Shown: in pieces, positions 5,842 through 48,146 of the stretch
Layout of the letters: each line of letters opens with the position of its first letter
Position numbering within the stretch: position 1 is the stretch's first letter
Assembly: GCA_947650365.1 (NCBI GenBank)
Contig: OX393555.1
Location: 79,489,995 to 79,553,994 of the forward strand
DNA: 64,000 bases
DNA from: Chamaelirium japonicum
Lineage: Eukaryota; Streptophyta; Magnoliopsida; Liliales; Melanthiaceae
Direction: 5' to 3'
Notes under the pieces: model-generated
The model's input: the letters and a program-made list of their open reading frames with translations, nothing else
What the model was told of the DNA's origin: nothing
Databases searched by the model: none
Position numbers and translations under genes: made by a program

Positions 5842-5848
5842 CGCACGA
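3158..5848 (+). repeat. Plus-type arm of 5.4-kb unit, copy 1
   Basis: About 2.7 kb of C-rich units. CATTCTTACT markers lie at 4587 and 4845, exactly 258 bp apart, showing the 11-unit higher-order repeat. The arm is not a mirror image of the preceding minus arm in its variant order. It resembles 8.6-11.2 kb in the next copy. Confidence 0.93.
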
Positions 5849-11190: not shown

Positions 11191-14100
11191 ATGTATTCAT
11201 TCGCACAATCTATTCTAATTCATTCGTACGATCCATTCTAATTCATTAGCACGATCTATTCTAATTCATTCGTACGATCCATTCTATTTCATTCGTATGA
11301 TCTATTCTAACTCATTCATACGATGCATTCTAATACATTCGCACGAATGAATCCATTCTAATTCATTCGTACGATCCATTCTAGTTCATTCACACAAACC
11401 ATTCTAATTTATTCATACGATCCATTCTAATTCATTCGTACGATCCATTCTAATTCATTCGCACAATCTATTCTAATTCAATCGTACGATCCATTCTAAT
11501 TCATTAGCACGATCTATTCTAATTGCTTCGTACGATACATTCTATTTCATTCGTACGATCCATTCTTACTTATTCGTACAATCCATTCTAATTCATTTGC
11601 ACGAATGTATCTATTCTAATTCATTCGTACGATCCATTCTAATTCATTCGTACGATCCATTCTAATTCATTCGCACGATCCATTCTAATTCATTCATACG
11701 ATCCATTCTAATGCATTTGTACGATCCATTCTAATTCATTCGTTCGATCCATTCTAATTCATTAGTACTATCCATTCTAATTGATTCATACGATCTATTC
11801 TAATTTATACGATCCATTCTAATTCATTCATACGATCCATTCTATTTCATTCGTATAATCCATTCTAATTCATTCATACCATCCATTCTATTTCATTCGT
11901 ACGATCCATTCTTACTCATTCGTACGATCCAATCTAATTCATTCGCACGATCCAATCATATTCATTCGTACGATCCATTCTAATTCATTCGTACGATCCA
12001 TTCTATTTCATTCATACGTTCCATTCTTACTCATTCGTACGATCCATTCTAATTCATTCGCACGAATGTATCCATTCTAATTCATTCGTACGATCCAATC
12101 TAATTCCTTCGCACGATCCTTTCTAATTCATTCATATGATCCATTCTAATTCATTCATACGATCCATTCTAATTCATTCATACAATCCATTCTAATTCTT
12201 TTGCACGAATGTATCCATTCTAATTCATTCGTACGATCCATTCTAATTCATTCATACGATCCATTCTAATTCATTCGTACGATCCAGTCTAATTCATACG
12301 TATGATCTATTCGAATTCATTCATAAGATCCAGTCTAATTCATTCATACGATCCATACTAATTCATTCGCACGAATGTATCCATTCTAATTCATTCGTAC
12401 GATCCATTCTAATTCATTCACACGATCCAATCTAATTCATTCGCACGATCCATTCTAATTCATTCGTACGATCCATTCTATTTCATTCGTACGATCCATT
12501 CTTACTCATTCGTACGATCCATTCTATTTCATTCCTACGATCCATTCTATTTCATTCGTACGATCCATTCTTACTGATTCATACGATCCATTCTAATTCG
12601 TTCGCACGAATGTATCCATTCTAATTCATTCGTACGATCCATTCTAATTCATTCGCACGATCCATTCTAATTCATTCATACGATCCATTCTAATTCATTC
12701 GCACGAATGTATCAATTCTAATTCATTCGTATGATCCATTCTAATTCATTCGCACAACTTATTCTAATTCATTCGTACGATCCATTCTAATTCATTAGCA
12801 CGAACCATTCTAATTCATTCGTACGATCCATTCTATTTCATTTGTACGATCCATTCTTACTCATTCGTACGATCCATTCTAATTCATTCGCACGAATGTA
12901 TCCATTCTATTCTAATTCATTCGTATGATCCATTCTAATTCATTCGCACGATCCATTCTAATTCATTCATACGATCCATTCTAATTCATTCGTACGATCC
13001 ATTCTAATTCATTGGCACGATCCATTCTAATTCATTCATACAATCCATTCAAATTCATTCATACAATTCATTCTAATTCTTTCGCACAAATGTATCCATT
13101 CTAATTCATTCGTACGATCCACCCTAATTCCTTCGTATGATCCATTCTAATTCATTCGGACGAATGTATCCATTCTAATTCATTCGTATGATCCATTCGA
13201 ATTTATTCATACGATCCATTCTAATTCATTCATATGATCCATTCTAATTCATTAGCACGAAATGTATTCATTCGGACAATCTATTCTAACTCATTCGTAC
13301 GATCCATTCTAACTCATTAGCACGATCCATTCTAATTCATTCGTACGATCCATTCTATTTCATTCGTACGATCCATTCTTACTCATTCGTACGATCCATT
13401 CTAATTCATTCGCATGAATGTATCTATTCTAATTAAGTCATACGATCCATTCTAATTCACTCGCACGATCCATTCTAATTCATTCGTACGATCCATTCTA
13501 ATTCATTCGCACAATCTATTCTAATTCATTCGTATGATCCATTCTAATTCATTAGCACGATCCTTTCTAATTCATTCGAACGATCCATTCTATTTCATTC
13601 GTACGATCCATTCTTAGTCATTCGTACGATCCATTCTAATTCATTCGCATGAATGTATCCATTCTTATTCATTCGTACGATCCATTCTAATTCATTCGCA
13701 CGATCCATTCTAATTTATTCGTACGATCCATTCTAATTCATTCGTACGATCCATTCTAATTCATTCGCACGATCCATTCTAATTCATTCATACGATCCAT
13801 TCTAATTCATTCGTACAATCCACCCTAATTCCTTCGTATGATCCATTCTAATTCATTCGCACGAATGTTTCTATTCTAATTCATTTGTACGATCAATTCG
13901 AATTCATTTATATGATCCATTTTAAATCTTTTGCATGATCCATTCTAATTCATTCATACGAACCATTCTAATTCATTCGTACGATCCATTCTAATTCATT
14001 CGCACGATCCATTCTAATTCATTTGCATGATCCATTCTAATTCCTTCGTACGATCCATTCTATTTCATTTGTATGATCCATTCTAATTCCTTCGTACGAT

Positions 14101-14897
14101 CCATTCTAATTCATTCCCATGAATGTATCCATTCTAATTCATACGTACGATCCATTCTTACTCATTCGTACTATCCATTCTAATTCATTCGCACGATCCA
14201 TTCTAATTCATTTGCACGATCATTTCTAATTCATTCATACAATCCATTCTAATTCTTTTGCACGAATGTATCCATTCTAATTCATTCGTACGATCCATTC
14301 TAATTCCTTCGTACGATCCATTATAATTCCTTCGTACGATCCATTCTAATTCCTTTGTACGATCCATTCTATTTCATTCGTATGATCCATTCTAATTCCT
14401 TCTTACGATCCATTCTAATTCATTCCCATGAATGTATCTATTCTAATTACTTTGTACGATTCATTCTAATTCATTCGTACGATCCATTCTTTTGTATGTA
14501 TCCATTCTAATTTAATCGTACGATCCATTCTAATTCATTCGCATGAACCATTCTAATTCATTCATTCGATCCATTCTAATTCATTCGTACAATCCATTCT
14601 AATTCATTCGCACGATCCATTCTAATTCATTCTTACGATCCATTCTAATTCTTTCGTACGATCAATTCTAATTCATTCGCACAATCTATTCTAATTCATT
14701 CGTACGATCCATTCTAATTCATTAGCACGATCGATTCTAATTTATTCATACGATCCATTCTATTTTATTCGTACGATCCATTCTTACTCATTCGTACGCT
14801 CCATTCTAATTCATTCGCACGATCCATTCTAATTCATTCATACGATCCATTCTATTCTATTCGTACGATCCATTCTTACTCATTCGTATGATCCATT
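8633..14897 (+). repeat. Long plus-type block
   Basis: About 6.3 kb of C-rich units. The first 2.5 kb repeats 3158-5841 with an added segment of about 217 bp: the ATTTGTACGATCCACCC marker is at 5382 and 11015, 5633 bp apart instead of 5416. CATTCTTACT markers at 10368 and 10626 are 258 bp apart. From about 10.6 kb it matches 22.5-26.8 kb. The block ends where CATTCATGGGAATG turns the array to minus-type. Confidence 0.92.
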
Positions 14898-15027
14898 CAT
14901 GGGAATGAATTAGAATGGATCATACGAAAGAATTAGAAAGGATCGTACGAATGAATTAGAATAGATTGTGCGAATGAATTAGAATGGATCATATGAATGA
15001 ATTAGAATGGATTGTGCTAATGAGTAA
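14898..15027 (-). repeat. Short minus-type block
   Basis: Begins at CATGGGAATGAATTAG, the complement of the CCCATGAATG variant, and ends in TGAGTAAGAT. It has a homologue at 26841-26968 with the same flanks. Confidence 0.88.
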
Positions 15028-15063
15028 GATTAATTCTTACTTATTCGTACGATCCATTCTAAT
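15028..15063 (+). repeat. Micro-inverted plus-type stretch (about 36 bp)
   Basis: One and a half plus-type units lie between two minus-type blocks. The left edge is a near-hairpin (AGTAAGA, 5-base loop, TCTTACT) and the right edge is the 40-bp palindrome at 15043-15082. Confidence 0.85.
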
Positions 15064-15082
15064 TAGAATGGATCGTACGAAT
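15043..15082. repeat. Perfect 40-bp palindrome at a strand switch
   Basis: The two 20-base halves are exact reverse complements, centred between 15062 and 15063 on CTAATTAG. Half a plus-type unit and spacer meets its own complement. It is the longest perfect palindrome I noticed and could extrude as a cruciform. Confidence 0.92.
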
Positions 15083-15538
15083 GAATTAGAATGGATTGTA
15101 TGAATGAATTAGAATGGGTCGTGCGAATGAATTAGAATGGATCGTACGAATGAATTAGAATGGATACATTCATGTGAAAGAATTAGAATGGATTGTATGA
15201 ATGAATTAGAATGGATCGTATGAATGAATTAGAATGGATCGTGCGAATGAATTAGAATGGATCGTATGAATAAAATGGAATGGATCGTACGAATGAATTA
15301 GAATGGATCGTGCGAATGAATTAGATTGGATCGTGCAAATGGATCGTACGAATGAATTAGAATGGATTGTACGAATGAATTAGAATGTATTGTACGAATG
15401 AATTAGAATAGATTGTGGGAATGATTTAGAATGTATCGTACGAATGAATTAGAATGGATCGTATGAATGAATTAGAATGGATCGTACGAATGAATTAGAA
15501 TGGATACATTCGTGCGAAAGAATTAGAATGGATCGTGC
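15064..15538 (-). repeat. Minus-type block
   Basis: Minus-type units from the palindrome to the switch GATCGTGCTAATTCATTC. It matches 27003-27527 at an offset of about 11.99 kb, and the same closing junction word occurs at 32370 and (as GTGCTGATTC) near 62308. Confidence 0.9.
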
Positions 15539-17800
15539 TAATTCATTCAAATGATCCATTCTAATTCATTCATACGATCTATTCTAATTCATTCGAACAA
15601 TCTATTCTAATTCATTCGTATGATCCATTTTAATTCATTCGCACGATCGATTCTAATTCATTTGAACGATCCATTCTAATTCATTCATACAATCCATTCT
15701 AATTCTTTCGCAAGATTGTATCCATTCTAATTCATTCGTACGATCCACACTAATTCCTTCGTATGATCCATTCTAATTTATGCGTACGATCCATTCTAAT
15801 TCATTCATACGATCCATTCTAATTCATTCATACAATCTATTCTAATTCGTTCGCACGAATGTATCTATTCTAATTCATTCGTACGATCAACCCTAATTCC
15901 TTCGTATGATCTATTCTAATTCATTCGCTCGAATGTATCCATTCTAATTCATTCGTACGATCCATTCTAATTCATTTGTACTATCCACCCTAATTCCTTC
16001 GTATGATCCATTCTAATTCATTCGCACGAATGTATCCATTCTAATTCATTCGTACGATCCATTCGAATTCATTCATACGATACACTCTAATTCATTCGCA
16101 CGAATGTATCCATTCTAATTCATTCGTACGATCCATTCTAATTAATTCGCACGATCCAATTTAATTCATTTGCACGATCCATTCTAATTCATTCGTACGA
16201 TCTATTTTATTTCATTCGTACGATCCATTCTTACTCATTCGTACGATCCATTCTGATTCATTCACACGAATATATCCTCATTCGCACGATCCATTCTAAT
16301 TCATTTGCACGATCCATTCTAATTCATTCATTCAGTCCATTCTAATTCTTTCGCACCAATGTATCCATTCTAATTCATTCGTACGATCCACCCTAATTCC
16401 TTCGTATGATCCATTCTAATTCATTCGCACGAATGTATCCATTCTAAATCATTCGTACGATCCATTCGAATTCATTCATATGATCCATTCTAATTCATTC
16501 ATACGATCCATTCTAATTTATTCGCACGAATGTATCCATTCTAATTCATTCATACGATCCATTCTAATTCATTCGCACAATCTATTCTAATTCATTCGTA
16601 CGATCCATTCTAATTCAATCGCACGATCCATTCTAATTCATTCGCACAATCTATTCTAATTCATTCATACAATCCATTCTAATTCTTTTGCACGAATGTA
16701 TCTATTCAAATTCATTCGTACGATCCATTCTAATTCCTTCATATGATCCATTCTAATTCCTTCGTACGATCCGTTCTATTTCATTCGTATGATCCATTCT
16801 AATTCCTTCGTACGATCCATTCTAATTCATTACCATGAATGTATCCATTCTAATTCGTACGTACGATCCATTCTAATTCATTCATACGATCAATTCTAAT
16901 TCATTCGCACGAATATATCCATTCTAATTCATTCGTATGATCCATTCTAATTCATTCGCACGATCCATTCTAATTCATTCGTACGATCCATTCTGATTCA
17001 TTCATACGATCCATACTAATTCATTAGCACGAATGTATCCATTCTAATTCATTCGTGCGATCCTTTCTAATTCATTCTAATCCATTCTAATTCATTCGTA
17101 CGATCCATTCTAATTTCATACGTACGATCCATTCTAATTCATTCATACGATCCATTCTAATTTATTCGCACGAATATATCCATTCTAATTCATTCGTACG
17201 ATCCATTCTAATTCATTCGCACGAATGTATCCATTCTAATTCATTCTAATTCCTTCGTATGATTCATTCGTACGATCCATTCTAATTCCTTCGCACGAAA
17301 ATATCCATTCTAATTCATTCGTACATACGATACATTCTAATTCATTCGCACGATCTATTCTAATTCATTCATACGATCTATTCTAATTCATTCATACAAT
17401 CCATTCTAATTCTTTCGTACGAATGTATCCATTCTAATTAATTCATACAATCCATTCTAATTCTTTCGCACGATCCATTCTAATTCCTTCGTACGATCCA
17501 TTCTAATTCATTCGTAAAATCCATTCTAATTCATTCGCACCATCCATTCTAATTCATTCATACGATCCATTCTAATTCATTTATACAATCCATTCTAATT
17601 CTTTCACACGAATGTATCCATTCTAATTCATTCGTACGATCCACCCTAATTCCTTCGTATGATCCATTCTAATTCATTCGCACGAATGTATCCATTCTAA
17701 TTCATTCGTAATATCCATTCGAATTCATTCATACGATCCATTTTAAATCATTCATACATTCCATTCTAATTCATTTATACGATCCATTCTAATTCATTTA
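15539..17800 (+). repeat. Plus-type block, right part of 12-kb segment copy 1
   Basis: C-rich units rich in the ACCCTAATTCC variant (15735, 15891, 15985, 16388, 17642). It carries a truncated unit, GTATCCTCATTCG near 16276, with counterparts at 28288 and 63068. It ends at ATTTATACGAATGAAATAG, turning to minus-type. Confidence 0.9.
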
Positions 17801-18765
17801 TACGAATGAAATAGAATGGATCGTACGAATGAATTAGAATGGATCGTGCAAATGAATTAGAATGGATCGTGCGAATGAATTAAAATGGATCGTACGAATG
17901 AGTAAGAATGGATCATACGAATGAAATAGAATGGATCATATGAATGAATTAGAATGGATCGTACGAATGAATTAGAATAGATCGTGCGAATGAATTAGAA
18001 TGGATCGTGCGAATGAATTATAATGGATCGTACAAATGAATTAGAATGGATCGTATGAATGAATTAGAATGGATCATGCGAATGAATTAGAATGGATCGT
18101 ATGAATGAATTTGAATGGATCGTACGAATGAATTAGAATGGATACATTCGTGCGAATGAATTAGAATGGATTATACGAAGGAATTAGGGTGAATCGTAGA
18201 AATGAATTAGAATAGATACATTCGTGTGAAAGAAATAGAATGGACTGTATGAATCAATTAGAATGGATCGTATGAATAAATTAGAATGGATCGTATGAAT
18301 GAATTAGAATGGATCATACAAAGGAATTAGAATGGATACATTCATGCGAAAGAATTATAAAGGATTGTATGAATGAATTAGAATGGATCGTATGAATGAA
18401 TTAGAATGGATCATGCGAATGAATTAGAATGGATCGTACGAATGAATTTTAATGGATCGTATGAATGAATTAGAATGGATCATGCGAATGAAATAGAATG
18501 GATCGTACGAATGAATTAGAATGGATCGTGCTAATGAATTAGAATGGATCGTACGAATGAATTAGAAGGGATCATACGAAGGAATTAGGGTTGATCGTAC
18601 GAATGAATTAGAATGGAAACATTCGTGCGAAAGAATTAGAATAGATTGTATGAATGAATTAGAATGGATCGTGCAAATGAATTAGAATGGATCGTGCGAA
18701 TGAATTAGAATGGATCGTACGAATGAATTAGAATAGATTGTGCGAATGAATTAGAATGGATCGTA
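17801..18765 (-). repeat. Minus-type block, shortened third copy of the 5.4-kb minus arm
   Basis: Marker order matches roughly 7.5-8.6 kb: GAATTAGGGTG then AGATACATTCGTG with AAGAAATAG near 18185-18240, and GGAAACATTCG at 18615 (compare 8440 and 2974). It lacks the first part of the arm. It ends in a different junction, at the palindrome 18754-18775. Confidence 0.85.
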
Positions 18766-18775
18766 CGATCCATTC
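18754..18775. repeat. 22-bp palindrome at minus-to-plus switch
   Basis: A perfect palindrome centred on CGTACG joins a minus-type unit to a plus-type unit through their common spacer (GGATCGTACGATCC in the middle). Confidence 0.9.
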
Positions 18776-18779
18776 GAAT

Positions 18780-20480
18780 TCATTCATACGATCCATTCTA
18801 ATTCATTCGTACGATCCATTCTAATTCATTCATACAAACCATTCTATTTCATTCGTACGAACCATTCTTACTCATTCATACGATCCATTCTAATTCATTC
18901 GCACGAATGTATCCATTCTAATTCATTCATACGATCCATTCTAATTCATTCGCACGATCCATTCTAATTAAATCATACGATCCATTCTAATTCATTCGTA
19001 CGATCCATTCTAATTCATTCGCACAATCTATTCTAATTCATTCGTACGATCCATTCTAATTCATTAGCACGATCCATTCTAATTCATTCATACGATCCAT
19101 TCTATTTCTTTCGTACGATCCATTCTTACTGATTTGTACGATCCATTCTAATTCATTTGCACGAATGTATCGATTCTAATTCGTTCGTACGATCCAGTCT
19201 AATTCATTCGCACGATCCATTCGAATTCATTCATTCGATCCATTCTAATTCATTCATACGATCCATTCTAATTCATTCGCACGAATGTATCCATTGTAAT
19301 TCATTCATACGATCCATTCTAATTCATTTACACAATCTATTCTAATTCATTCGTACGATCCATTCTAATTCATTAGCACGATCCATTCTAATTCATTCGT
19401 ACGATCCATTCTATTTCATTCGTACGATCCATTCTTACCTATTCGTACGATCCATTCTAATTCATTCGCACGAATGTATCCATTCTATTCTAATTCATTC
19501 GTACGATCCATTCTAATTCATTCGCACGATCCATTCTAATTCATTCATACAATCCATTCTAATTCATTCATACGATCCATTCTAATTCATTCGCACGATC
19601 CATTGTAATTCATTCATACGATCCATTCTAATTCATTCATACAATCCATTCTAATTCTTTCGCACGAATGTATCCATTCTAATTCATTTGTACGATCCAC
19701 CCTAATTCCTTCGTATTATCCATTCTAATTCATTCGCACGAATGTATCCATTCTAATTCATTCGTACGGTCCATTCGAATTCATTCCTACGATCCATTCT
19801 AATTCATTCATACGATCCATTCTAATTCATTCATACGATCTATTCTAATTTATTCGCACGAATGTATTCATTCGCACAATCTATTCTAATTCATTCGTAC
19901 GATCCATTCTAATTCATTAGCACAATCCATTCTAATTCATTCGTACGATCCATTCTATTTCATTCGTATGATCTATTCTAACTCATTCGTACGATCCATT
20001 CAAATTCATTCACACGAATGAATCCATTCTAATTCATTCGTACGATCCATTCTAATTCATTCGCACGAACCATTCTAATTCATTCGTACGATCCATTCTA
20101 ATTCATTCGTACGATCCATTCTAACTCATTCGCACAATCTATTCTAATTCATTTGTACGATCCATTCTAATTCATTAGCACGATCCATTCTAATTCATTC
20201 GTATGATCCGTTCTATTTCATTCGTACGATCCATTATTACTCATTCGTACGATCCATTCTAATTCATTCGCACGAATGTATCCATTCTAATTCATTCGTA
20301 CGATCCATTCTAATTCATTCGTACGATCCATTCTAATTCATTCGCACGATCCATTCAAATTCATTCGCACGATCCATTCTAATTTATTCATACGATCCAT
20401 TCTAATTCATTCGTACAATCCATTCTAATTCATTAGCACTATCCATTCTAATTCATTCATACGATCTATTCTAATTTATA
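18780..20480 (+). repeat. 3.46-kb duplication, copy 1
   Basis: Private landmarks recur 3460-3461 bp downstream: the AATTAAATC variant (18966/22425), the CTATTCTAATTC unit (19481/22942), CACACGAATGAATCC (20011/23471) and the shortened CTAATTTATA unit (20472/23932). Edges are approximate. Confidence 0.8.
18868..19125 (+). repeat. 258-bp higher-order repeat copy
   Basis: Spans two CATTCTTACT markers and includes the AATTAAATCATACG private variant. Its counterpart 3461 bp downstream is 22329-22586. The next marker (19435) is 309 bp on, that is 258 plus one 23-mer and one 28-mer; the downstream copy shows the same 309 (22587 to 22896). Confidence 0.85.
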
Positions 20481-21160
20481 CGATCCATTCTAATTCATTC
20501 ATACGATCCATTCTATTTCATTCGTATGATCCATTCTAATTCATTCATATGATCCATTCTATTTCATTCGTACGATCCATTCTTACTTATTCGTACGATC
20601 AAATCTAATTCATTCGCACGATCCAATCATATTCATTCATACGATCCATTCTAATTCATTCGTACGATCCATTCTTACTCATTCGTACGATCCATTCAAA
20701 TTCATTCCCACGAATGTATCCATTCTAATTCATTCGTACGATGCATTATAATTCATTCGCACGATCCATTCTAATTCATTCATACGATCCATTCTAATTC
20801 ATTCGTACGATCCATTCTAATTCGTTCATACAAACCATTCTAATTCATTCATACGATCCATTCTAATTCATTCGTACGATCCATTCTAATTCATTCATAC
20901 GATCCATTCTATTTCATTCGTACAAACCATTCTTACTCATTCATACGATCCTTTCTAATTCATTCGCACGAATGTATCCATTCTAATTCATTCGTACGAT
21001 CCATTCTAATTCATTCGCACGATCCATTCTAATTAAATCATACGATCCATTCTAATTCATTCGTACGATCCATTCTAATTCATTCGCACAATCTATTCTA
21101 ATTCATTCGTACGATCCATTCTAATTCATTCGCACAGTCTATTCTAATTCATTCGTATGT
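20160..21160 (+). repeat. 1.0-kb tandem duplication, copy 1
   Basis: The stretch around 20170-20520 reads almost the same as 21170-21520 at an offset of exactly 1000 bp. Both have the TATGATCCGTTCTATTTC unit, the AGCACTATCC spacer and the shortened CTAATTTATACGAT unit (20472 and 21472). Confidence 0.75.
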
Positions 21161-22160
21161 TCTATTCTAATTCATTAGCACGATCCATTCTAATTCATTC
21201 ATATGATCCGTTCTATTTCATTCGTACGATCCATTCTTACTCATTCATGCGATCCATTCTAATTCATTCGCACGAATGTATCCATTCTAATTCATTCGTA
21301 CAATCCATTCTAATTCATTCGTACGATCCATTCTAATTCATTCGCACGATCCATTCTAATTCATTCGCACGATACATTCTAATTCATTCGTACGATCCAT
21401 TCTAATTTATTCGTACAATCCATTCTAATTCATTAGCACTATCCTTTCTAATTCATTCATACGATCTATTCTAATTTATACGATCTATTCTAATTCATTC
21501 ATATGATCCATTCTATTTCATTCGTACGATCCATTCTTACTTATTCGTACGATCCAATCTAATTCATTCGCACGATCCAATCATATTCATTCGTATGATC
21601 CATTCTAATTCATTCGTACGATCCATTCTATTTCATTCATACGATCCATTCTTACTCATTCGTACGATCTATTCTAATTCATTCGCACGAATGTATCCAT
21701 TCTAATTCATTCGTACGATCCATTCTAATTCATTCGCACGATCCATTCTAATTCATTTATACGATCCATTCTAATTCATTCGTACGATCCATTCTAATTC
21801 ATTCATACAAACCATTCTAAATCTTTCGCACGAATGTATCCATTCTAATTCATTCGTACGATCTATTCTAATTCATTCGCCCGATCCATTCTAATTCATT
21901 CATACGATCCATTCTAATTCATTTGTACGATCCATTCTAATTCATACGTACGATTCATTCGAATTCATTCATACGATCTATTCTAATTCATTCATACGAT
22001 CCATTCTAATTCATTCGCACGAATGTATCCATTCTAAATCATTCGTATGATCCATTCTAATTCATTCGCATGATCCAATCTAATTCATTCGCACGATCCA
22101 TTCTAATTCATTCGTACGATCCATTCTATTTCATTCGTACAATACATTCTTACTCACCAT
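21161..22160 (+). repeat. 1.0-kb tandem duplication, copy 2
   Basis: Second copy of the previous segment, drifting out of register toward its right end, where the private variants no longer match. It lies inside the interval between the two 3.46-kb copies. Confidence 0.7.
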
Positions 22161-22239
22161 TCTAATTCATTCGCACGAATGTATCCATTCTAATTCATTC
22201 GTACGATCCATTCTAGTTCATTCGCACGATCCATTCTAA

Positions 22240-23940
22240 TTCATTCATACGATCCATTCTAATTCATTCGTACGATCCATTCTAATTCATTCATACGATC
22301 CATTTTATTTCATTCGTACGATCCATTCTTACTCATTCATACGATCCATTCTAATTCATTCGCATGAATGTATCCATTCTAATTCATTCGTACGATCCAT
22401 TCTAATTCATTCGCACGATCCATTCTAATTAAATCATACGATCCATTCTAATTCATTCGTACGATCCATTCTAATTCATTCGCACAATTTATTCTAATTC
22501 ATTCGTACGATCCATTCTAATTCATTAGCACGATCCATTCTAATTCATTCGTACGATCCATTCTATTTCTTTCGTACGATCCATTCTTACTGATTCGTAC
22601 GATCCATTCTAATTCATTCGCACGAATGTATCCATTCTAATTCGTTCGTACGATCCATTCTAATTCATTCGCACGATCCATTCGAATTCATTCATACGAT
22701 CCATTCTAATTCATTCGTACGATCCATTCTAATTCATTCGCACGAATGTATCCATTCTAATTCATTCGTACGATCCATTCTAATTCATTCACACAATCTA
22801 TTCTAATTCATTCGTACGATCCATTCTAAATCATTAGCACGATCCATTCTAATTCATTCGTACGATCCATTCTATTTCATTCGTACGATCCATTCTTACC
22901 TATTCGTACGATCCATTCTAATTCATTCGCACGAATGTATCCATTCTATTCTAATTCATTCGTACGATCTATTCTAATTCATTCACACGATCCATTCTAA
23001 TTCATTCATACAATCCATTCTAATTCATTCATATGATCCATTCTAATTCATTCGCACGATCCATTCTAATTCATTCATACGATCCATTCTAATTCATTCA
23101 TACAATCCATTCTAATTCTTTCGCACGAATGTATCCATTCTAATTCATTTGTACGATCCACCCTAATTCCTTCGTATGATCCATTCTAATTCATTTCAAG
23201 AATGTATCCATTCTAATTCATTCATACGGTCCATTCGAATACATTCCTACGATCCATTCTAATTCATTCATACGATCCATTCTAATTCATTCATACGATC
23301 TATTCTAATTCATTCGCACGAATGTATTCATTCGCACAATCTATTCTAATTCATTCGTACGATCCATTCTAATTCATTAGCACGATCCATTCTAATTCAT
23401 TCGTACGATCCATTCTATTTCATTCCTATGATCTATTCTAACTCATTCGTACGATCCATTCAAATTCATTCACACGAATGAATCCATTCTAATTCATTCG
23501 TACAATCCATTCTAATTCATTCGCACGAACCATTCTAATTCATTCGTACGATCCATTCTAATTCATTCGTACGATCCATTCTAATTCATTCGCATAATCT
23601 ATTCTAATTCATTCGTACGATCCATTCTAATTCATTAGCACGATCCATTCTATTTCATTCGTATGATCCGTTCTATTTCATTCGTACGATCCATTCTTAC
23701 TCATTCGTACGATCCATTCTAATTCATTCGCACGAATGTATCCATTCTAATTCATTCGAACGATCCATTCTAATTCATTCGTACGATCCATTCTAATTCA
23801 TTCGCACGATCTATTCTAATTCATTCGTACGATCCATTCTAATTCATTCGTACGATCCATTCTAATGCATTCGTACAATCCATTCTAATTCATTAGCACT
23901 ATCCATTCTAATTCATTCATACGATCTATTCTAATTTATA
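22240..23940 (+). repeat. 3.46-kb duplication, copy 2
   Basis: Counterpart of 18780-20480 with the same run of private variants. Single-base differences are scattered, so the two copies are old enough to have diverged slightly. Confidence 0.8.
22329..22586 (+). repeat. 258-bp higher-order repeat copy
   Basis: Same arrangement as 18868-19125, including the AATTAAATCATACG unit, at an offset of 3461 bp. Shared private variants show it came from duplication of a longer segment, not independent formation. Confidence 0.85.
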
Positions 23941-25528
23941 GGATCCATTCTAATTCATTCATACGATCCATTCTATTTCATTCGTATGATCCATTCTAAT
24001 TCATTCATTTGATCCATTCTATTTCATTCGTACGATCCATTCTTACTCATTCGTACGTTCCAATCTAGTTCATTCGCATGATCCAATCATATTCATTCGT
24101 ACGATCCATTCTAATTCATTCGTACGATCCATTCTATTTCATTCATACGATCCATTCTTACTCATTCGTACCATCCATTCTAATTCATTCGCACGAATGT
24201 ATCCATTCTAATTCATTCGTACGATCCAATCTAATTCCTTCGCACGATCCTTTCTAAATCATTCATACGATCCATTCTAATTCATTCGTACGATCCATTC
24301 TAATTCATTCATACAATCAATTCTAATTCTTTTGCACGAATGTATCCATTCTAATTCATTCATACGATCCATTCTAATTCATTTGCACGATCCATTCTAA
24401 TTCATTCATACGATCCATTCTAATTCATTCATACGATCCATTCTAATTCATATATACGATCCATTCGAATTCATTCATACGATCCTGTCTAATTCTTTCA
24501 TATGATCGATACTAATTCATTCGCACGAATGTATCCATTCTAATTCATTCATACGATCCATTCTAATTCATTCGCACGATCCAATCTAATTCATTCGCAC
24601 GATCCATTCTAATTCGTTCGTACGATCTATTTTATTTGATTCGTACGATCCATTCTTACTCATTCGTACTATCCATTCTATTTAATTCGTACGATCCATT
24701 TTTACTGATTCGTACGATCCATTCTAATTCGTTCGCACGAATGTATCCATTCTAATTCATTCGTACGATCCATTCTAATTCATTCGCACGATCCATTCTA
24801 CTTCATTCATACGATCCATTCTAATTCATTCATATGATACATTCTAATTCATTCGCACGAATGTATCAATTCTAATTCATTCGTACGATCCATTCTAATT
24901 CAATCGCACAACCTATTATAATTCACTCGTACGATCCATTCTAATTCATTAGCACGATCCATTCTAATTCATTCGTACGATCCATTCTATTTCATTCGTA
25001 CGATCCATTCTTACTCATTCGTACAATCCATTATAATTCATTCGCACGAATGTATCCATTTTATTCTAATTCATTCATACGATCCATTCTAATTCATTCG
25101 CACGATCCATTCTAATTCATTCATACGATCCATTCTAATTAATTCGTACGATCCAGTTTAATTCATTCGCACGATCCATTCTACATTCATACTATCCATT
25201 CTAATTCATTCATACAATCCATTCTAATTCTTTCGCACGAATGTATCCATTCTAATTCATTCGTACGATCCACCCTAATTCCTTTGTACGATCCATTCTA
25301 ATTCATTCGGATGAATGTATCCATTCTAATTCATTCGTACGATCCATTCGAATTCATTCATACGATCCATTCTAATTCATTCATGCGATCCATTCTAATT
25401 CATTCGCACGAATGTATTCATTCGAACAATCTATTCTAATTCATTCGTACGATCCATTCTATTTCATTAGCACGATCCATTCTAATTCATTCGTACGATC
25501 CATTCTATTTCATTCGTACGATCCATTC

Positions 25529-25786
25529 TTACTCATTCGTACGATCCATTCTAATTCATTCGCACGAATGTATCCATTCTAATTCAGTCATACGATCCAT
25601 TCTAATTCATTCGCACGATCCATTCTAATTTATTCATACGATCCATTCTAATTCATTCGTACGATCCATTCTAATTCATTCGCACAATCTATTCTAAGTC
25701 ATTCGTACGATCCATTCTAATTCATTAGCACTATCCATTCTAATTCATTCGTACGATCTATTCTATTTCATTCGTACGATCCATTC
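25529..25786 (+). repeat. 258-bp, 11-unit higher-order repeat (clear example)
   Basis: From one CTTACTC marker to the next lie eleven units: one plain 23-mer, a 28-mer after a CGCAC spacer, then spacers CATAC, CGCAC, CATAC, CGTAC, CGCACAATC, CGTAC and AGCAC, then the CTATTTC unit and the CTTACTC unit. Ten 23-mers plus one 28-mer give exactly 258 bp. The same spacing is seen at 4587/4845, 10368/10626, 18868/19126 and 22329/22587. Confidence 0.9.
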
Positions 25787-26840
25787 TTACTCATTCGTAC
25801 GATCCATTCTAATTCATTCGCATGAATGTATCCATTCTAATTCATTCGCATGAATGTATCTATTCTAATTCATTTGTACGATCCATTCTAATTCATTCGC
25901 ACGATCCATTCTAATTCATTCGTACGATCCATTCTCATTCATTCGTACGATCCATTCTAATTCATTCATACGATCCATTCTAATTCATTCGCACGATCCA
26001 TTCTAATTCATTCATGCGATCCATTCTAATTCCTTCGTACGATCCATTCTAATTCATTCCCATGAATGTATCGATTCTAATTCATACGTATGATCCATTC
26101 TTACTCATTCGTACTATCCATTCTAATTCATTCGCACGATCGATTCTAATTCATTTGCACGATCCATTCTAATTCATTCATACAATCCAGTCTAATTCTT
26201 TTGCACGAATGTATCCATTCTAATTCATTCGTACGATCCATTCTAATTCCTTCGTTCGATCCATTATAATTCCTTCGTACGATCCATTCTAATTCCTTCG
26301 TATGATCCATTCTATTTCATTCGTATGATCCATTCTAATTCCTTCGTATGATCCATTCTAATTCATTCCCATGAATGTATCCATTCTAATTCCTTCGTAC
26401 GATTCATTCTAATTCATTTGTACGATCCATTCTTTCGTATGTATCCATTCTAATTTATTCGTACGATCAATTCTAATTCATTCGCCCGATCCATTCTAAT
26501 TCATTCGTACGATCCATTCTAATTCATTCATACGATCCATTCTAATTCATTCGCACGATCCATTCTAATTCATTCTTACGATCCATTCTAATTCTTTCGT
26601 ACGATCAATTTTAATTCATTCGCACAATCTATTCTAATTCATTCGTACGATCCATTCTAATTCATTAGCACGATCCATTCTAATTTATTCATATGATCCA
26701 TTCTATTTCATTCGTACGATCCATTCTTACTCGTTCATACGATCCATTCTAATTCATTCGCACGATCCATTCTAATTCATTCATACGATCCATTCTATTA
26801 CATTCGTACGATCCATTCTTACTCATTCGTACGATCCATT

Positions 26841-26968
26841 CATGGGAATGAATTAGAATGGATCATACAAAAGAATTAGAAAGGATCGTACAAATGAATT
26901 AGAATAGATTGTGCGAATATATTAGAATGGATCATATGAATGAATTAGAATGGATTGTGCTAATGAGT
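26841..26968 (-). repeat. Short minus-type block
   Basis: Homologue of 14898-15027, entered through the same CATTCATGGGAATG junction and ending in the hairpin at 26962-26988. Confidence 0.88.
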
Positions 26969-26988
26969 AAGATCAATTCTTACTCATT
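26962..26988. repeat. Perfect hairpin: 11-bp arms, 5-base loop
   Basis: AATGAGTAAGA, loop TCAAT, then TCTTACTCATT. It marks the left edge of the micro-inversion. The homologous site in the other 12-kb copy (near 15020) has one arm mismatch. Confidence 0.9.
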
Positions 26989-27002
26989 CGTACGACCCAT
27001 TC
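26969..27002 (+). repeat. Micro-inverted plus-type stretch (about 34 bp)
   Basis: Short plus-type stretch between the hairpin and CATTCTAATTAGAATG. Matches 15028-15063; here a GACCC change shortens the perfect palindrome. Confidence 0.85.
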
Positions 27003-27527
27003 TAATTAGAATGGATCGTACGAATGAATTAGAATGGATTGTATGAATGAATTAGAATGGATCGTGCGAATGAATTATAATGGATCGTACGAATAAATTA
27101 GAATGGATACATTCGTGCGAAAGAATTAGAATGGATTGTATGAATGAATTAGAATAGATCGTACGAATGAATTAGAATGGATCGTATGAATGAATTAGAA
27201 TGGATCGTGCGAATGAATTTGAATGGATCGTATGAATGAAATAGAATGGATCATACGAATGAATTAGAATGGATCGTGCGAATGAATTAGATTGGATCGT
27301 GCGAATGGATCGTACGAATGAATAAGAATGGATCATACGAATGAATTAGAATGTATTGTACGAATGAATTAGAATAGATTGTGCGAATGATTTAGAATGG
27401 ATCGTACGAATAAATTAGAATGGATCGTACGAATGAATTAGAATGGATCGTATGAATGAATTAGAATGGATCGTACGAATGAATTAGAATGGATACATTC
27501 GTGCGAAAGAATTAGAATGGATCGTGC
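27003..27527 (-). repeat. Minus-type block
   Basis: Matches 15064-15538 but is about 50 bp longer, close to two extra units. It closes with GATCGTGCTAATTCATTC. Confidence 0.9.
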
Positions 27528-30068
27528 TAATTCATTCATACGATCCATTCTAATTCATTCGTACGATCTATTCTAATTCATTCGCACAATCTATTCTAAT
27601 TCACTCGTACGATCTATTCTAATTCATTCGCACGATCCATTCTAATTCATTTGCATGATCCATTCTAATTCATTCATACAATCCATTCTAATTCTTTCGC
27701 AAGAATGTATCCATTCTAATTCATTCGTACGATCCACCCTAATTCCTTCGTATGATCCATTCTAATTCATTCGCACGATCCATTCTAATTCATTCATACG
27801 ATCAATTCTAATTCATTCATACAATCCATTCTAATTCTTTCACACGAATGTATCCATTCTAATTCATTCGTACGATCAACCCTAATTCCTACGTATGAAC
27901 CATTCTAATTCATTTCCATGAATGTATGCATTCTAATTCATTCGTACGATCCATTCTAATTCATTCGTACTATCCACCCTAATTCCTTCGCATGATCCAT
28001 TCTAATTCATTCGCACGAATGTATCCATTCTAATTCATTCGTATGATCCATTCGAATTCATTCAAACGATCCATTCTAATTCATTCATACGATCCACTCT
28101 AATTCATTCACACGAATGTATCCATTCTAATTCATTCGTACGATCCATTCTAATTAATTCGCACGATCAAATCTAATTCATTTGCATGATCCATTCAAAT
28201 TTATTCGTACGATCTATTTTATTTCATTCGTACGATCCATTCTTACTCATTCGTACGATCCATTCAAATTCATTCGCATGAATGTATCCTCATTCGCACG
28301 ATCCATTCTAATTCATTTGCACGATCCATTCTAATTCATTCATATAATCCATTCTAATTTTTTCGCACCAATGTATCCATTCTAAATCATTCGTACGAAC
28401 CACCCTAATTCCTTCGTATGATCGATTCTAATTCATTCGCACGAATGTATCCATTCTAATTCATTCGTACGATCCCTTCGAATTCATTCATATGATCCAT
28501 TCTAATTCATTCATACGATCCATTCTAATTTATTCGCACGAATGTATCCATTCTAATTCATTTGTACGATCCATTCTAATTCATTCGCACAATCTATTCT
28601 AATTCATTCGTACCATCCATTCTAATTCATTCGCACGATCCATTCTAATTCATTTGCACGATCCATTCTAATTCATTCATACAATCCATTCTAATTATTT
28701 TGCACGAATGTATCCATTCAAATTCCTTCGTACGAACCACTCTAATTCCTACATATGATCCATTCTAATTCCTTCGTACGATCCATTCTATTTCATTCGT
28801 ATGATCCATTCTAATTCCTTCGTATGATCCATTCTAATTCATACGTACGATCCATTTTAATTCATTCATACGATCCATTCTAATTCATTCGCACGAATGT
28901 ATCCATTCTAATTCATTCGTACGATCCATTCTAATTCTTTCGCACGATCCATTCTAATTCATTCGTACGATCCATTCTTATTCATTCATAGGATCCATTC
29001 TAATTCATTCGTGCGATCCATTCTAATTCATTCTAATCCATTCTAATTTATTCGTACGATCCATTCTAATTTTATACGTACGATCCATTCTAATTCATTC
29101 TAATTCATTCATACGATCCATTCTAATTCATTCGCACGAATGTATCCATTCTAATTCATTCGTACGATCCATTCTAATTCATTCGCACGAATGTATCCAT
29201 TCTAATTCATTCGTACGATCCATTCTAATTCATTCGTACGTACGATCCATTCTAATTCATTCGTACGTACGATCCATTCTAATTCATTCGCACGATCCAT
29301 TCTAATTCATTAATACGATCCATTCTAATTCATTCATACAATCCATTCTAATTCTTTCGCACGAATGTATCCATTCTAATTCATTCATACAATCCATTCT
29401 AATTCTTTCGCACGATCCATTCTAATTCATTCGTACGATCCATTCTAATTCATTCGCACCATCCATTCTAATTCATTCATACGATCCATTCTAATTCATT
29501 TATACAATCCATTCTAATTCTTTCGCACGAATGTATGCATTCTAATTCATTCGTACGATCCACCCTAATTCCTTCGTATGATCCATTCTAATTCATTCGC
29601 ACGAATGTATCCATTCTAATTCATTCGTACGATCCATTCGAATTCATTCATACAATCCATTCTAATTCATTCATACGATCCATTCTAATTCATTCGCACG
29701 AATGTATTCATTCGAACAATCTATTCTAATTCATTTGTACGATCCAGTCTAATTCATTAGCCCCATCCATTCTAATTCATTCATACGATCCATTCTATTT
29801 CATTCGTACGATCCATTCTTACTCATTCGTACGATCCATTCTAATCCATTAGCACGAATGTATCTATTCTAATTCATTCATACGATCCATTCTAATTCAT
29901 TAGCCCGATTCATTCTAATTCATTCATACGATCCATTCTATTTCATTCGTACTATCCATTCAAATTCATAAAATCCATTCTAATTTCATTCATACGATCC
30001 ATTCTAATTCATTCTTACTCATTCTAATTCATTCGTAAAATCCATTCATATGATCTAATTCTTTCGTA
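27528..30068 (+). repeat. Plus-type block with a degraded right edge
   Basis: Matches 15539-17730 as far as about 29690. The last 130 bp (29940-30068) are irregular, with shortened units such as ATTCATAAAATCC and GATCTAATTC, before the switch ACAATGAATTAG. Confidence 0.9.
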
Positions 30069-31101
30069 CAATGAATTAGAAAGGATACATTTGTGCGAAT
30101 GAATTAGAATGGATCGTATGAATGAATTAGACTGGATCATACGAATAAAATAGAATGGATCGTACGAATGAATTAGAATGGATCGTACTAATGAATTAGA
30201 ATGGATCGTACGAATGAATTAGAATAGATTGTGCGAATGAATACATTCGTGCGAATGAATTAGAATGGATCGTATGAATGAATTAGAATGGATCGTATGA
30301 ATGAATTAGAATGGATCGAATGAATGAATTCGAATGGATCGTACGAATGAATTAGAATGGATACATTCGTGCGAATGAATTAGAATGGATCATACAAGGG
30401 AATTAGGGTGGATCGTACGAATGAATTAGAATGGATCGTACTAATGAATTAGAATGGATCGTACGAATGAATTAGAATAGATTGTGCGAATGAATTAGAA
30501 TGGATCGTACGAATGAACTAGAATGGATCGTATGAATGAATTAGAATGGATCCTGAGAATGAATTAGAATGGATCGTACGAATGAATTAGAATAGATACA
30601 TTCGTGCGAATGAATTAGAATGGATCGTAAGAATGAGTAAGAATTAGAATGGATTGTATGAATGAATTAGAATGGATCGTATAAATGAATTAGAATGGAT
30701 CGTGCGAATGAATTAGAATGTATTGTGCTAATGAGTAAGAATGGATGGTACGAATGAAATATAATAGATCATCAGAATGAATTAGAATAGATCGTGCTAA
30801 TAAATCAGAATGGATCGTACGAATGAATTAGAATAGATTGTGCGAATGAATTAGAATAGATCGTGCGAATGAATTAGAATGGATACATTCATGCAAATGA
30901 ATTAGAATGGATCGTATGAATGAATTAGAATGGATCGTATGAATGAATTCTACTGGATCGTACGAATGAATTAGAATGGATACATTCGTGCGAATGAATT
31001 AGTATGGATCATACGAAGGAATTAGGGTGGATCGTACGAATGAATTAGAATGGATACATTCGTACGAAAGAATTAGAATGGATCATATGAATTAGAATGG
31101 A
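30069..31101 (-). repeat. Minus-type block
   Basis: Minus-type units holding the complement of the usual order (GAATTAGGGTGG next to GGATACATTCG, near 30410 and 31023). It ends through GGATACATTCGTACGATCC, where a 28-mer spacer joins a plus-type unit. Confidence 0.9.
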
Positions 31102-31858
31102 TACATTCGTACGATCCATTCTAATTCATTCATACGATCCATTCTATTTCATTCGTGCGATCCATTCATACTCATTCGTACGATCCATTGGAATTCATTC
31201 GTACGATCCATTCTAATTCATTCGCACAATCTTTTCCAATTCATTCGTACGATCCATTCTAATTCATTAGCACGATCCATTCTAATTCATTCATACGGTC
31301 CATTCTATTTCATTCGTATGATCCATTCTTACTTATTTATACGATCCATTCTAATTCATTCGCATGAATGTATCCATTCCAATTCATTCGTACGATCCAT
31401 TCTATTTCATTCATACGATCCATTCTAATTCATTCCTACGATCCATTCTAATTCATTCGAACAAAAGTAAGCATTCTAATTCATTCGCACGATCTATTCT
31501 AATTCATTCGTACAATCCATTCCAATTCATTCGTACGACCCATTCTAATTCATTCATACGATCCACCCTAATTCCTTCGTATGATCCATTCTAATTCGTT
31601 CGCACGAATGTATCTATTCTAATTCATTCTAATTCATTCGCACGATCCATTCTAATTCATTCATACGATCCATTCTAATTCATTCACACGATCCATTCTA
31701 ATTCATTCGCACGAATGTATCCATTCTAATTCATTCATACGATCCATTCTAATTCATTCGCACAATCTATTCTAATTCATTCATACGATCCATTCTAATT
31801 CATTCGTACGATCCATTCTAATTCATTCGCATGATCCATTCTAATTCATTCATACGAT
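31102..31858 (+). repeat. Plus-type block
   Basis: C-rich units including CTATTTC and ACCCTAATTCC variants. It ends at CATACGATCGATCGTGC, a spacer-to-spacer join centred on CGATCG. Confidence 0.9.
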
Positions 31859-32370
31859 CGATCGTGCTAATGAATTAGAATGGATCGTATGAATGAATTA
31901 GAATTGATCGTACGAATGAAATAGAATGGATCGTACGAATGAATTAGAATGTCGTATGAATGAATTAGAATGGATCGTGCGAATGAATTAGAATGGATCG
32001 TACGAATGAATTAGAATGGATATATTCGTGCGAACGAATTAGAATGGATCGTACGAAGGAGTAAGAATGGATCGTACGAATGAAATAAAATGGATCGTAC
32101 AAATGAATTAGAATGGATCGTGCGAATGAATTAGATTGGATCGTGCGAATGAATTAGAATGGATCGTACGAATGAATTAGAATGGATACATTCGTGCGAA
32201 TGAATTAGAATGGATACATTCGTGCGAATGAATTAGAATGGATCGTGCAAATGAATTAGAAAGGATCGTACGAATGAATTAGAATAGATCATATGAATGA
32301 GTTAGAATGGATCATACGAATGAATTAGAATCGATACATTCGTATGAAAGAATTAGAATGGATCGTGCTA
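31859..32370 (-). repeat. Minus-type block
   Basis: Minus-type units closing with GATCGTGCTAATTCATTC, the junction word also found at 15535 and 27524, so this edge probably shares their origin. Confidence 0.9.
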
Positions 32371-32491
32371 ATTCATTCATACGATCCATTCTAATTCATT
32401 CGTACGATCCATTCTAATTCATTCACACAATCTATTCTAATTCATTCGTACGATCCATTCTAATTCATTCGCACGATCCATTCTAATTCAT
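32371..32491 (+). repeat. Short plus-type block (about 120 bp)
   Basis: Five plus-type units between minus-type blocks, ending abruptly in CTAATTCATGGATCG with no spacer. Confidence 0.88.
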
Positions 32492-35150
32492 GGATCGTAT
32501 GAATGAATTAGAATGGATACATTCGTGCGAATGAATTAGAATGGATACATTCGTGCGAATGAATTAGAATGGATTGTACGAATGAATTAGAATGGATGCA
32601 TTCGTGCGAAAGAATTAGAATGGATCGTACGAATGAATTAGAATGGATCATACGAAGAAATTAGGGTGGATCGTACGAATGAATTAGAATGGATCGTACG
32701 AAGGAATTAGAATGGATCGTACGAAGGAATTAGAATGGATACATTCGTGCAAAAGAATTAGAATGGATCATACGAAGGAATTAGGGTGGATCGTACGAAT
32801 GAATTAGAATTGATACATTCGTGCGAAAGAATTAGAATAGATTGTTTGAATGCATTAGAATGGATCGTATGAATGAATTAAAATGGATCGTGCGAATGAA
32901 TTAGAATGGATCGTATAAATGAATTAGAATAGATTGTATGAATGTATTCGAATGGATCGTACGAATGAATTAGAATGGATACATTTGTGCGAATGAATTA
33001 GAATGGATCATACGAAGGAATTTGGGTGGATCGTACGAATGAATTAGAATAGATACATTCATGCGAAAGAATTAGAATGAATTAGGATGGATCGTACGAA
33101 GGAAATAGATTGGATACATTCGTGCGAATGAATTAGAATGGATCGTATGAATGAATTAGAATGGATCGTACGAATGAATTAGAATGGATCGTACGAAAGA
33201 ATTAGAATGGATCGTGCTAATGAATTAGAATGGATCATACGAATGAATTAGAATAGATTGTGCGAATAAATTAGAATGGATCATACGATTGAATTAGATT
33301 GGATCGAATGAATGAATTAGAATGGATCGTGCGAATGACGTAGAATGGATCGTACGAATGAATTAGAATGGATACATTAGTGCAAATGAATTAGAATGGA
33401 TCGTACGAATGAGTTAGAATGGATCGTACGAGTGAAATAGAATGGATCGTACGAATGAATTAGAATGGATCGTGCGAAGGAATTAGAATGGATCATACGA
33501 ATGAAATAGAATGGATCGTATGAAGGAATTAGAATGGATCGTACGAAGGAATTAGAATGGATCATACGAAGGAATTAGAATGGATCGTACGAATGAATTA
33601 GAATGGATCGTACGAATGAGTAAGAATGGATCGTACGAATGAAATAGAATAGATCGTACAAATAAATTAGAATGGATCATACGAATGAGTAAGAATGGAT
33701 CGTACGAATGAAATAGAATAGATCGTACGAATGAATTAGAATGGATCATGCTAATGAATTAGAATGGATCATACGAATGAATTAGATTAGATTGTGCGAA
33801 TGATGAATTAGAATGGATCGTGCGAATGAATTAGATTGGTTCGTGCGAATGAATTAGAATGGATCGTACGAATGAATTAGAATGAATACATTCATGAGAA
33901 TGAATTAGAATGGATCGTACGAATGAATTAGAAAGAATACATTCGTGAGAATGAATTAGAATGGATCGTATGAATGAATTAGAATGGATCGTATGAATGA
34001 ATTCGAATAGATCGTACGAAGGAATTAGAATGGATCGTATGAATGAATTAGAACGGATCGTGCGAATGAGTTAGAACGGATCGTACGAATGAATAAGAAT
34101 GGATACATTCGTGCAAATGAATTAGAATGGATCGTACGAATGAGTAAGAATGGATCGTACGAATGAAATAGAATGGATCGTACGAATGAATTTGAATGGA
34201 TCGTGCGAAAGAATTAGATTGGATCATGAAAATGAATTAGAATGGATCATACAATTGAATTAGAATGGATACATTCGTGCGAATAAATTAGAATGGATCG
34301 TACGAATGAATTAAAATGGATACATTCGTGCAAATGAATTAGAATGGATCATGCAAATAAATTAGAATGGATCGTACGAATGAATTAGAATGGATTGTAT
34401 AAATAAATTAGAATGGATCGTACGAATGAGTAAGAATGGACCGTACAAATGAAATAGAATGGATCGTACGAATAAATTAGATCATACAATCCATGGGAAT
34501 GAATAAGAATCGATCGTACGAATGAATTCCTTAGCACGAATGAATTAGAATGGATCATACGAATGGATTGTACGAAGTAATTAGAATGAATTAGAATGGA
34601 TCGTACGAATGAATTAGAATGGATCGTATGAATAAATTAGATTGGATCGTGCGAATAAATTAGAATGGTTCGTACGAATGAATTAGAATGGATACATTCG
34701 TGCGAATGAATTAGAATGGATCGTATGAATGAATTAGAATGGATCGTATGAATAAATTCGAATGGATCATACGTATGAATTATAATGGATCGTACGAATG
34801 AATTAGAATGGGTCGTATGAATGAATTAGAATGGATCATACGAAGGAATTAGAATGGATCGTACGAAGGATTTAGAATGGATCGTACGAAGGAATTAGAA
34901 TGGATCGTACGAATGAATTAGAATGGATACATTCGTGCAAAAGAATTAGAATGGATTGTATGAATGAATTAGAATGGATCGTACAAATGAATTCGAATAG
35001 ATCGTGCGAATGAATTAGAATGGATCGTACGAATGAATTAGAATAGATTGTGCGAATGAATTAGAATGGATCGAACGAATGAATTAGAATGGATACATTC
35101 GTGCGAATGAATTAGAATGGATCGTATGAATGAATTAGAATGGATCGTAC
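32492..35150 (-). repeat. Minus-type block with a scar at 34.5 kb
   Basis: About 2.7 kb of minus-type units. GAGTAAG markers at 34142 and 34428 are 286 bp apart, that is 258 plus one 28-mer. At 34480-34570 the order is disturbed (ACAATCCATGGGAATG, then GAATTCCTTAGCACGAATG), as expected from small leftover plus-type pieces. Confidence 0.9.
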
Positions 35151-35164
35151 GTACGATCCATTCT
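35137..35164. repeat. 28-bp palindrome at minus-to-plus switch
   Basis: Perfect palindrome centred on CGTACGTACG. Both spacers are kept, so GTAC is doubled, unlike the single CGTACG at 18766. Confidence 0.9.
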
Positions 35165-35787
35165 TACTCATTCATACGATCCATTCTAATTCATTCGCAC
35201 GATCCATTCTAATTCATTCATACGATCCATTCTAATTCATTCATACATTCAATTCTAATTCTTTCGCACGAATTTATCCATTCCAATTCATTCGTACGAT
35301 CCACCCTAATTCCTTCGTATGATCCATTCTAATTCTTTCGCACGAATGTATTCTAATTCATTCGTACGATCCATTCTAATTCATTTGTATGATCCATTCT
35401 AATTCATTCATATGATCCAATCTAATTCATTCATACGATCCATTCTAATTTATTCGCACGAATATATCCATTCTAATTCATTCATACGATCCATTCTAAT
35501 TCATTTGCACGATCCAATCTAATTCATTCATACGATCCATTCTAATTCATTCGTACGATCCATTCTAATTCGTTCGCACGAATATATCCATTCTAATTCA
35601 CTTGCACGATCTATTCTAATTCATTCGCATGATCCATTCTAATTCATTCATACGATCTATTCTTACTCATTCGTACGATCCATTCTAATTCATTCGCACG
35701 AATGTATCCATTCAAATTCATTCATACGATCCATTCTAATTCATTTGTACGATCCATTCTAATTCATTTATACAATCCATTCTAATT
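35151..35787 (+). repeat. Plus-type block
   Basis: C-rich units with the ACCCTAATTCC marker near 35303. It ends in the perfect 22-bp palindrome at 35775-35796, centred on CTAATTAG. Confidence 0.9.
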
Positions 35788-35796
35788 AGAATGGAT
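35775..35796. repeat. 22-bp palindrome at plus-to-minus switch
   Basis: ATCCATTCTAA meets its exact complement. Same class as the palindromes at 15043, 47742, 48119, 56170 and 56549. Confidence 0.9.
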
Positions 35797-39657: not shown

Positions 39658-39670
39658 TCCATTCTAATTC
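39645..39670. repeat. 26-bp palindrome centred on GGATCC
   Basis: GAATTAGAATGGA and its complement meet exactly at the minus-to-plus switch. An equivalent lies at 41123-41148, 1478 bp on. Confidence 0.92.
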
Positions 39671-41135: not shown

Positions 41136-41148
41136 TCCATTCTAATTC
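41123..41148. repeat. 26-bp palindrome centred on GGATCC
   Basis: Exact equivalent of 39645-39670 in the second 1.48-kb copy, at the minus-to-plus switch. Confidence 0.92.
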
Positions 41149-47753: not shown

Positions 47754-47765
47754 TTAGAATGGATC
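47742..47765. repeat. 24-bp palindrome at plus-to-minus switch
   Basis: GATCCATTCTAA joined to its exact complement. Left edge of the first 379-bp inverted module. Confidence 0.92.
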
Positions 47766-48132: not shown

Positions 48133-48146
48133 TTAGAATGGATCGT
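48119..48146. repeat. 28-bp palindrome at plus-to-minus switch
   Basis: Same join as 47742-47765, two bases longer on each side, 379 bp downstream. Confidence 0.92.

Follow-up and report, generated by a model that had tools for sequence, protein, structure and literature searches.

A 23/28-bp satellite array whose higher-order repetition lies at the kilobase scale and not at 258 bp

The 64,000-nt stretch of DNA analyzed here, which we refer to as the window, is a single satellite whose unit, GATCCATTCTAATTCATTCGTAC, is 23 bp long or, where a 5-bp ATGTA insertion follows GA (GA[ATGTA]TCC), 28 bp long. An earlier sequence-only reading had proposed that these units are organized into a true 258-bp, 11-unit higher-order repeat (HOR) comparable to those of alpha-satellite. 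We find that 258 bp is not a higher-order period and that higher-order repetition is present at the kilobase scale instead. Wraparound alignment to the 23-bp consensus yielded 2781 units, 2120 of them 23 bp and 312 of them 28 bp long, the remainder being units of different length or fragments where a block ends. Mean unit identity across the window is 92.3%, and units of at least 80% identity hold 95.1% of the bases, a lenient measure of coverage as short fragments align easily. The lowest mean unit identity in any 100-bp stretch is at least 72%, so the satellite runs throughout. A two-state orientation path divides the window into 59 blocks, and thus 58 switches of orientation, with uneven block lengths ranging from 52 to 8078 bp. 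In the whole window, there are 59 exact copies of the motif CATTCTTACT on the + strand and 30 of its reverse complement. The array and the six 258-bp stretches within it, each given with its string of unit variants, are as follows.

1..64000, no strand assigned: satellite array of the 23-bp unit and its 28-bp form in 59 blocks of alternating orientation (unit parsing, block list, Tandem Repeats Finder)
4578..4835, + strand: 258-bp, 11-unit stretch KcEca.TUS.TK (unit parsing)
10359..10616, + strand: 258-bp, 11-unit stretch K.Eca.cUS.TK (unit parsing)
18859..19116, + strand: 258-bp, 11-unit stretch KcEca.cUSaTK (exact motif search, unit parsing)
20666..20923, + strand: 258-bp, 11-unit stretch K-Eca.aa.aTK, absent from the sequence-only reading (exact motif search, unit parsing)
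22320..22577, + strand: 258-bp, 11-unit stretch K-Eca.cUS.TK (exact motif search, unit parsing)
25520..25777, + strand: 258-bp, 11-unit stretch KcEca.cUS.TK (exact motif search, unit parsing)

In these six cases, TTACT-type units lie 258 bp apart, and unit parsing confirmed in every one that the spacing amounts to 11 units, as had been claimed. Exact pairs of CATTCTTACT at this distance are found at 4582/4840, 18863/19121, 20670/20928, 22324/22582, and 25524/25782. Four of these had been recognized before, with coordinates about 5 too high, while 20670/20928 had been overlooked. A further pair, which had been placed at 10368/10626, does have TTACT units 258 bp apart, but these read AATTCTTACT and TATTCTTACT instead of the exact motif. 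Of the companion spacings that had been put forward, 281 and 286 bp occur among neighbors carrying the exact motif and 309 bp among neighbors in the tolerant TTACT class (3/66); 235 bp is missing from the complete exact-motif list, and the tolerant list covers the 20 commonest values only. The six order strings are similar without being identical, the strict form KcEca.cUS.TK was found once, and one case (20670) has neither U nor S. That the variants are ordered is nevertheless borne out by the sixfold occurrence of a similar 11-unit stretch and by non-random neighbor preferences, with US at 16.9 times and TK at 13.9 times the product of their frequencies. The 258-bp pattern is, in short, a recurring local stretch of 11 similarly ordered units.

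Whether such a stretch amounts to a higher-order period is a separate matter. Alpha-satellite HORs are defined by at least three successive tandem multimers that are far more alike (about 95% or more) than the monomers composing them. In the tolerant TTACT class, 258 bp is the commonest adjacent spacing (6/66 vs. 0.81 expected), with P of 0.0002 for 258 bp itself and 0.016 for any spacing of at least 100 bp reaching six, against 5000 random placements within blocks. When all pairs of TTACT units were considered, no lag from 1 to 60 units, 11 included, gave a |z| above 2.5. The proposal called for an autocorrelation peak at 258 bp and was to be refuted if this lag showed no excess compared with other combinations of 23 and 28; the latter outcome is what the whole sequence gives. 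Compared with 60 unit shuffles, the excess of identity over the whole sequence is largest at 97 bp (z 17.2) and 120 bp (z 16.3) and declines steadily through 143 (14.9), 166 (14.1), 189 (12.9), 212 (10.7), 235 (9.0), 258 (8.1), and 281 bp (6.2), with 12.0 at 286 bp; 258 bp is thus above the shuffles but inconspicuous among its neighbors. Mean unit similarity at lag 11 is unremarkable (0.8141 vs. 0.8115 in shuffles, sd 0.0018), while lag 148 units is conspicuous, with a mean similarity of 0.8646 and an exact identity of 0.159, and fits a shift of 3.46 kb.

Segments were also compared directly. This local measure favors the proposal: 462 window starts have at least 90% identity over 258 bp when the lag is 258, which places this lag third among lags 100–599, behind 503 (744 windows) and 379 (719), both of which also reach at least 95%. 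None of the 258-bp comparison windows at lag 258 reaches 95%. The maximum there, 93.8%, is unremarkable, since values up to 95.0% arise at one lag or another even when the units are shuffled. No K-K-K trimers at 11-unit steps occur in the window, and Tandem Repeats Finder (TRF; periods up to 500) reported no 258-bp array, though it did report 189-bp arrays. A direct ungapped partner of at least 95% identity exists for 28,320 of the 63,743 comparison windows; the best partner lies 5–13 kb away in 21,558 of them, less than 600 bp away in 141, and at 258 bp in none. Far distances offer more diagonals, and the fairest contrast is therefore within the region that the sequence-only reading had described, where the best ungapped direct partner lies at 3460/3461 bp in 2759/6663 windows vs. 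at 258 bp in 17/6663. The array shares with alpha-satellite HORs a preferred order of variants, but nowhere do highly identical 258-bp copies follow one another in a run, and the notion of a true HOR of that length is not supported.

The kilobase-scale partners resolve into a small number of duplications. The ungapped diagonals richest in windows of at least 95% identity are those at 8430 (4020 windows), 8509 (2255), 11943 (766), 3461 (731), 3460 (713), 5476 (582), and 5417 (551), and they correspond to the following copies.

41850..50330, ends approximate, no strand assigned: orientation blocks 24–37, the first of the two tandem 8.43-kb copies (global alignment, BLAST, block list)
50359..58760, ends approximate, no strand assigned: orientation blocks 38–51, the second of the two tandem 8.43-kb copies (block list, BLAST, global alignment)
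18734..25700, + strand: tandem pair of ~3.46-kb copies that carry 258-bp pairs along, shifts 3460/3461 (alignment, BLAST)
173..11030, no strand assigned: pair of ~5.4-kb copies with orientation switches, shifts 5417/5476 (alignment, BLAST)
10792..29800, no strand assigned: copies ~12 kb apart, shifts 11943, 12012, and 12131 (alignment, BLAST)

Identities from global alignment leave gaps out, and the scoring was lenient to long gaps. On this measure, the 8.43-kb copies are 97.73% identical, with 189 mismatches and 12 gaps in 8337 aligned bp, the 3.46-kb copies 94.0% over 3343 (18 gaps), the 5.4-kb copies 94.5% over 5053 (24 gaps), and the copies 12 kb apart 95.3% over 4294 and 95.2% over 3777 in two overlapping comparisons. 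The 8.43-kb duplication is the firmest, because BLAST identity stays high there (two parts at 96.6% and 98.1%) but comes near the search floor of 85% for the others. These rest on long unbroken diagonals of 95–99% windows, the best at shifts 3460/3461 being 98.8/98.4% identical. Across the 8.43-kb copies (~41850–58760), 14 orientation blocks recur in order, with lengths in blocks 24–37 and 38–51 of 1736/1065, 767/767, 1060/1027, 305/258, 470/471, 779/779, and 1501/1501 for the first seven and 99/99, 280/280, 99/99, 427/427, 748/770, 497/497, and 412/377 for the last seven. This pair is a high-identity tandem repeat of multi-unit copies, and thus an HOR at the kilobase scale, with two copies in the window. 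Many of the gaps between kilobase-scale copies have the length of one unit or of several added together (23, 28, 46, 115, 120, 161, and 166 bp), a trace expected of unequal exchange or slippage. At 39254–42210, a further pair of copies, again with orientation switches, is offset by about 1.478 kb (92.5% over 1319 aligned bp, 15 gaps).

To see where the 258-bp pairs come from, each of the five exact pairs (thus not the one near 10363) was split into its first and second 258-bp segment, called A and B, and the segments were compared. Within one pair, A and B are 86.7–89.7% identical, while the A segments of 4582, 18863, 22324, and 25524 are mutually 95.3–98.4% identical and the B segments of 18863 and 22324 are 96.1% identical. 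Since 18863 and 22324 match in both halves, these two pairs are copies of each other at a shift of 3461 bp. The seven places where lag 258 reaches at least 90% fall into the groups {10217, 18760, 22168}, at 95–97%, and {11194, 19857, 23317}, at 94–98%, with 20563 alone and at most 91% identical to any other; 11194 is the least clearly placed, at 94% within its own group vs. 93% to 22168. This grouping suggests about three origins. Several of the 258-bp occurrences are kilobase-scale copies of one another.

These observations are likely explained by a non-coding, probably heterochromatic eukaryotic satellite in which the 258-bp stretch is local, several of its cases are kilobase-scale copies, and duplications of about 3.5, 5.4, 8.4, and 12 kb are nested; the nature of the array itself points to the eukaryotic source. 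As to mechanism and function, we infer that units in imperfect alignment may have undergone unequal exchange or been copied during replication, by template switching or break-induced replication. Such misaligned copying would add or remove whole units and also create large tandem duplications, and copying of blocks of several kilobases, with occasional inversion, would hand ordered stretches along. Judging from what is generally known of satellites, the array would act as bulk structural heterochromatin, with no role as a gene for protein or RNA. A coding or RNA function was considered and rejected, as the window holds no open reading frame of at least 150 aa, no tRNA genes were found in it, and no Rfam family reached its gathering score.

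Several results weigh against this explanation. The B segments at 4582 and 25524 are only 85–88% identical to those at 18863 and 22324 and to each other, and these pairs therefore have only their first half in common. The 20670 pair lies outside every kilobase-scale group, yet its B segment is 94.6% identical to the A segments of 18863 and 22324, and its own A segment is 92–93% identical to other A segments. With gaps counted, BLAST gives just 88.9% over 4693 columns for the 3.46-kb pair, 86.2% over 5441 columns for the 5.4-kb pair, and 85.7–86.9% for the copies 12 kb apart, values of 86–89% overall that must be read in light of the 85% floor, near which many unrelated pairs of satellite segments fall. 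Some gaps between copies are not whole units (27, 19, 15, 13, and 10 bp). Finally, the 462 windows at lag 258 exceed the maxima of 60 shuffles (106 at lag 258 and 303 at any lag of at least 100), and units 11 positions apart are exactly identical at a rate of 0.0357 vs. 0.023 in shuffles (sd 0.0035). Some local duplication of 258 bp therefore did happen.

Among the alternatives, a functional centromere or another protein-binding array in which the order of variants matters would account for the ordered variants and their strong neighbor preferences, and satellites often mark centromeres. However, block copying by itself also gives ordered variants, and we regard a role of this kind as rather unlikely. 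Another possibility concerns the orientation blocks. Their pattern may be inherited inside the repeat unit, as an 8.43-kb cassette of 14 alternating-strand blocks copied in tandem, and it may matter for chromatin folding; we consider this quite unlikely.

The 258-bp, 11-unit unit proposed in the sequence-only reading could also have been a true HOR that has since decayed by gain and loss of units. The low P of the spacing of six similarly ordered stretches and the count of lag-258 windows above all shuffles are what such a history would leave. Against it stand the absence of trimers, of 95% windows, and of a TRF array at 258 bp, an autocorrelation that forms only a steady shoulder, the lack of any unit-level TTACT lag that stands out, and the fact that segments kilobases apart are more alike than neighbors, which together make decay very unlikely. 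It is just as improbable that artifacts of reads or assembly (fold-back reads, mis-joined haplotypes) produced the kilobase-scale duplications and the switches of orientation, the least unlikely form being a second haplotype mis-joined at the 8.43-kb pair. Satellite arrays are hard to assemble, but a fold-back read would give near-identity at the junctions, and at the 58 switches, ungapped mirror comparison over 200 bp gave at best 49–91.5% identity (at least 88% at 5/58), and one part of the 8.43-kb copies aligns gap-free over 2497 bp at 98.1%, unlike indel-rich read error. Exact inverted arms of at least 9 bp were noted near 20/58 switches, a count made without a control and from which nothing is claimed.

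Two further local arrays are nested in this organization.

47441..48435 and again 55872–56867, no strand assigned: 379-bp tandem repeat, up to 97.7% identical, that spans one inverted block of 99 bp and one direct block of 280 bp (block list, lag analysis)
42953..43639 and again 51462–52148, - strand: 189-bp (7 × 23 + 28) tandem array of 3.6 copies (Tandem Repeats Finder)

The 379-bp repeat is found in both 8.43-kb copies, and the 189-bp array is a more regular short HOR than the 258-bp pattern. The CpG observed/expected ratio is 2.15 over the whole window, because the unit consensus itself carries two CpG. Evidence for CpG-specific mutation (methylation decay) in the units is mixed. Among 2116 23-mers, the CpG positions are the most variable for C/T and G/A (G20 is replaced by A in 26.3%, for instance), and between the 8.43-kb copies, C/T differences amount to 5.8% before G vs. 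2.9–3.3% in other contexts. Rare one-step variants show no CpG excess, with 14/4098 opportunities before G (0.0034) vs. 0.0046–0.0060 elsewhere, 43 ambiguous variants having been dropped.

Among known systems, human HSat2/3 is the nearest organizational parallel. In the HSat2,3 study, the repeat is regarded as derived from CATTC and is arranged in units such as the 1.77-kb unit on chromosome 1 and the 3.6-kb DYZ1 unit on the Y, and reads matching both strands were put aside as possible inversion breakpoints (PMC4022460). A CATTC-rich short repeat arranged in kilobase-scale units is common to both; the window differs in its 23/28-bp unit and its orientation blocks of 52 to 8078 bp. CATTC occurs 2589 times and GAATG 1692 times in the 64 kb, a frequency that cannot by itself show descent from a CATTC pentamer. 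None of six HSat2,3 subfamily 24-mers taken from that study lies within 3 mismatches of any site in the window (the closest, HSat3A2, at 4/24), a comparison that used these six 24-mers with no control and no full consensus. The macro-dyads of Tribolium beetles likewise have satellite subarrays that switch orientation over kilobases; they tend to form symmetric pairs with conserved inversion sites, and their symmetries are, according to the authors, documented only in Tribolium to date (PMC13081366). The window differs in that its blocks are uneven in length and the tested flanks of its switches are not close mirror copies, the 58 junctions having the mirror identities given above. A blastn search of plasmids and phages with 18868–22868 only gave no match, though the low-complexity filter may hide such a query, and neither IMG/VR contigs nor GTDB species contigs matched two exact patterns; viral, plasmid, and prokaryotic collections, which may lack the genome that the window comes from, say little on a eukaryotic satellite. 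Four unit strings were not found in the literature searched, and the satellite may still be published.

Outside satellite evolution, the array is ordinary. Within that field, the analysis shows that this satellite is organized on a different scale from the one proposed: copying has acted on multi-kilobase blocks with internal inversions, which carry several of the 258-bp cases along. The window would accordingly offer a compact test case for how satellites with short units gain both order and switches of orientation.

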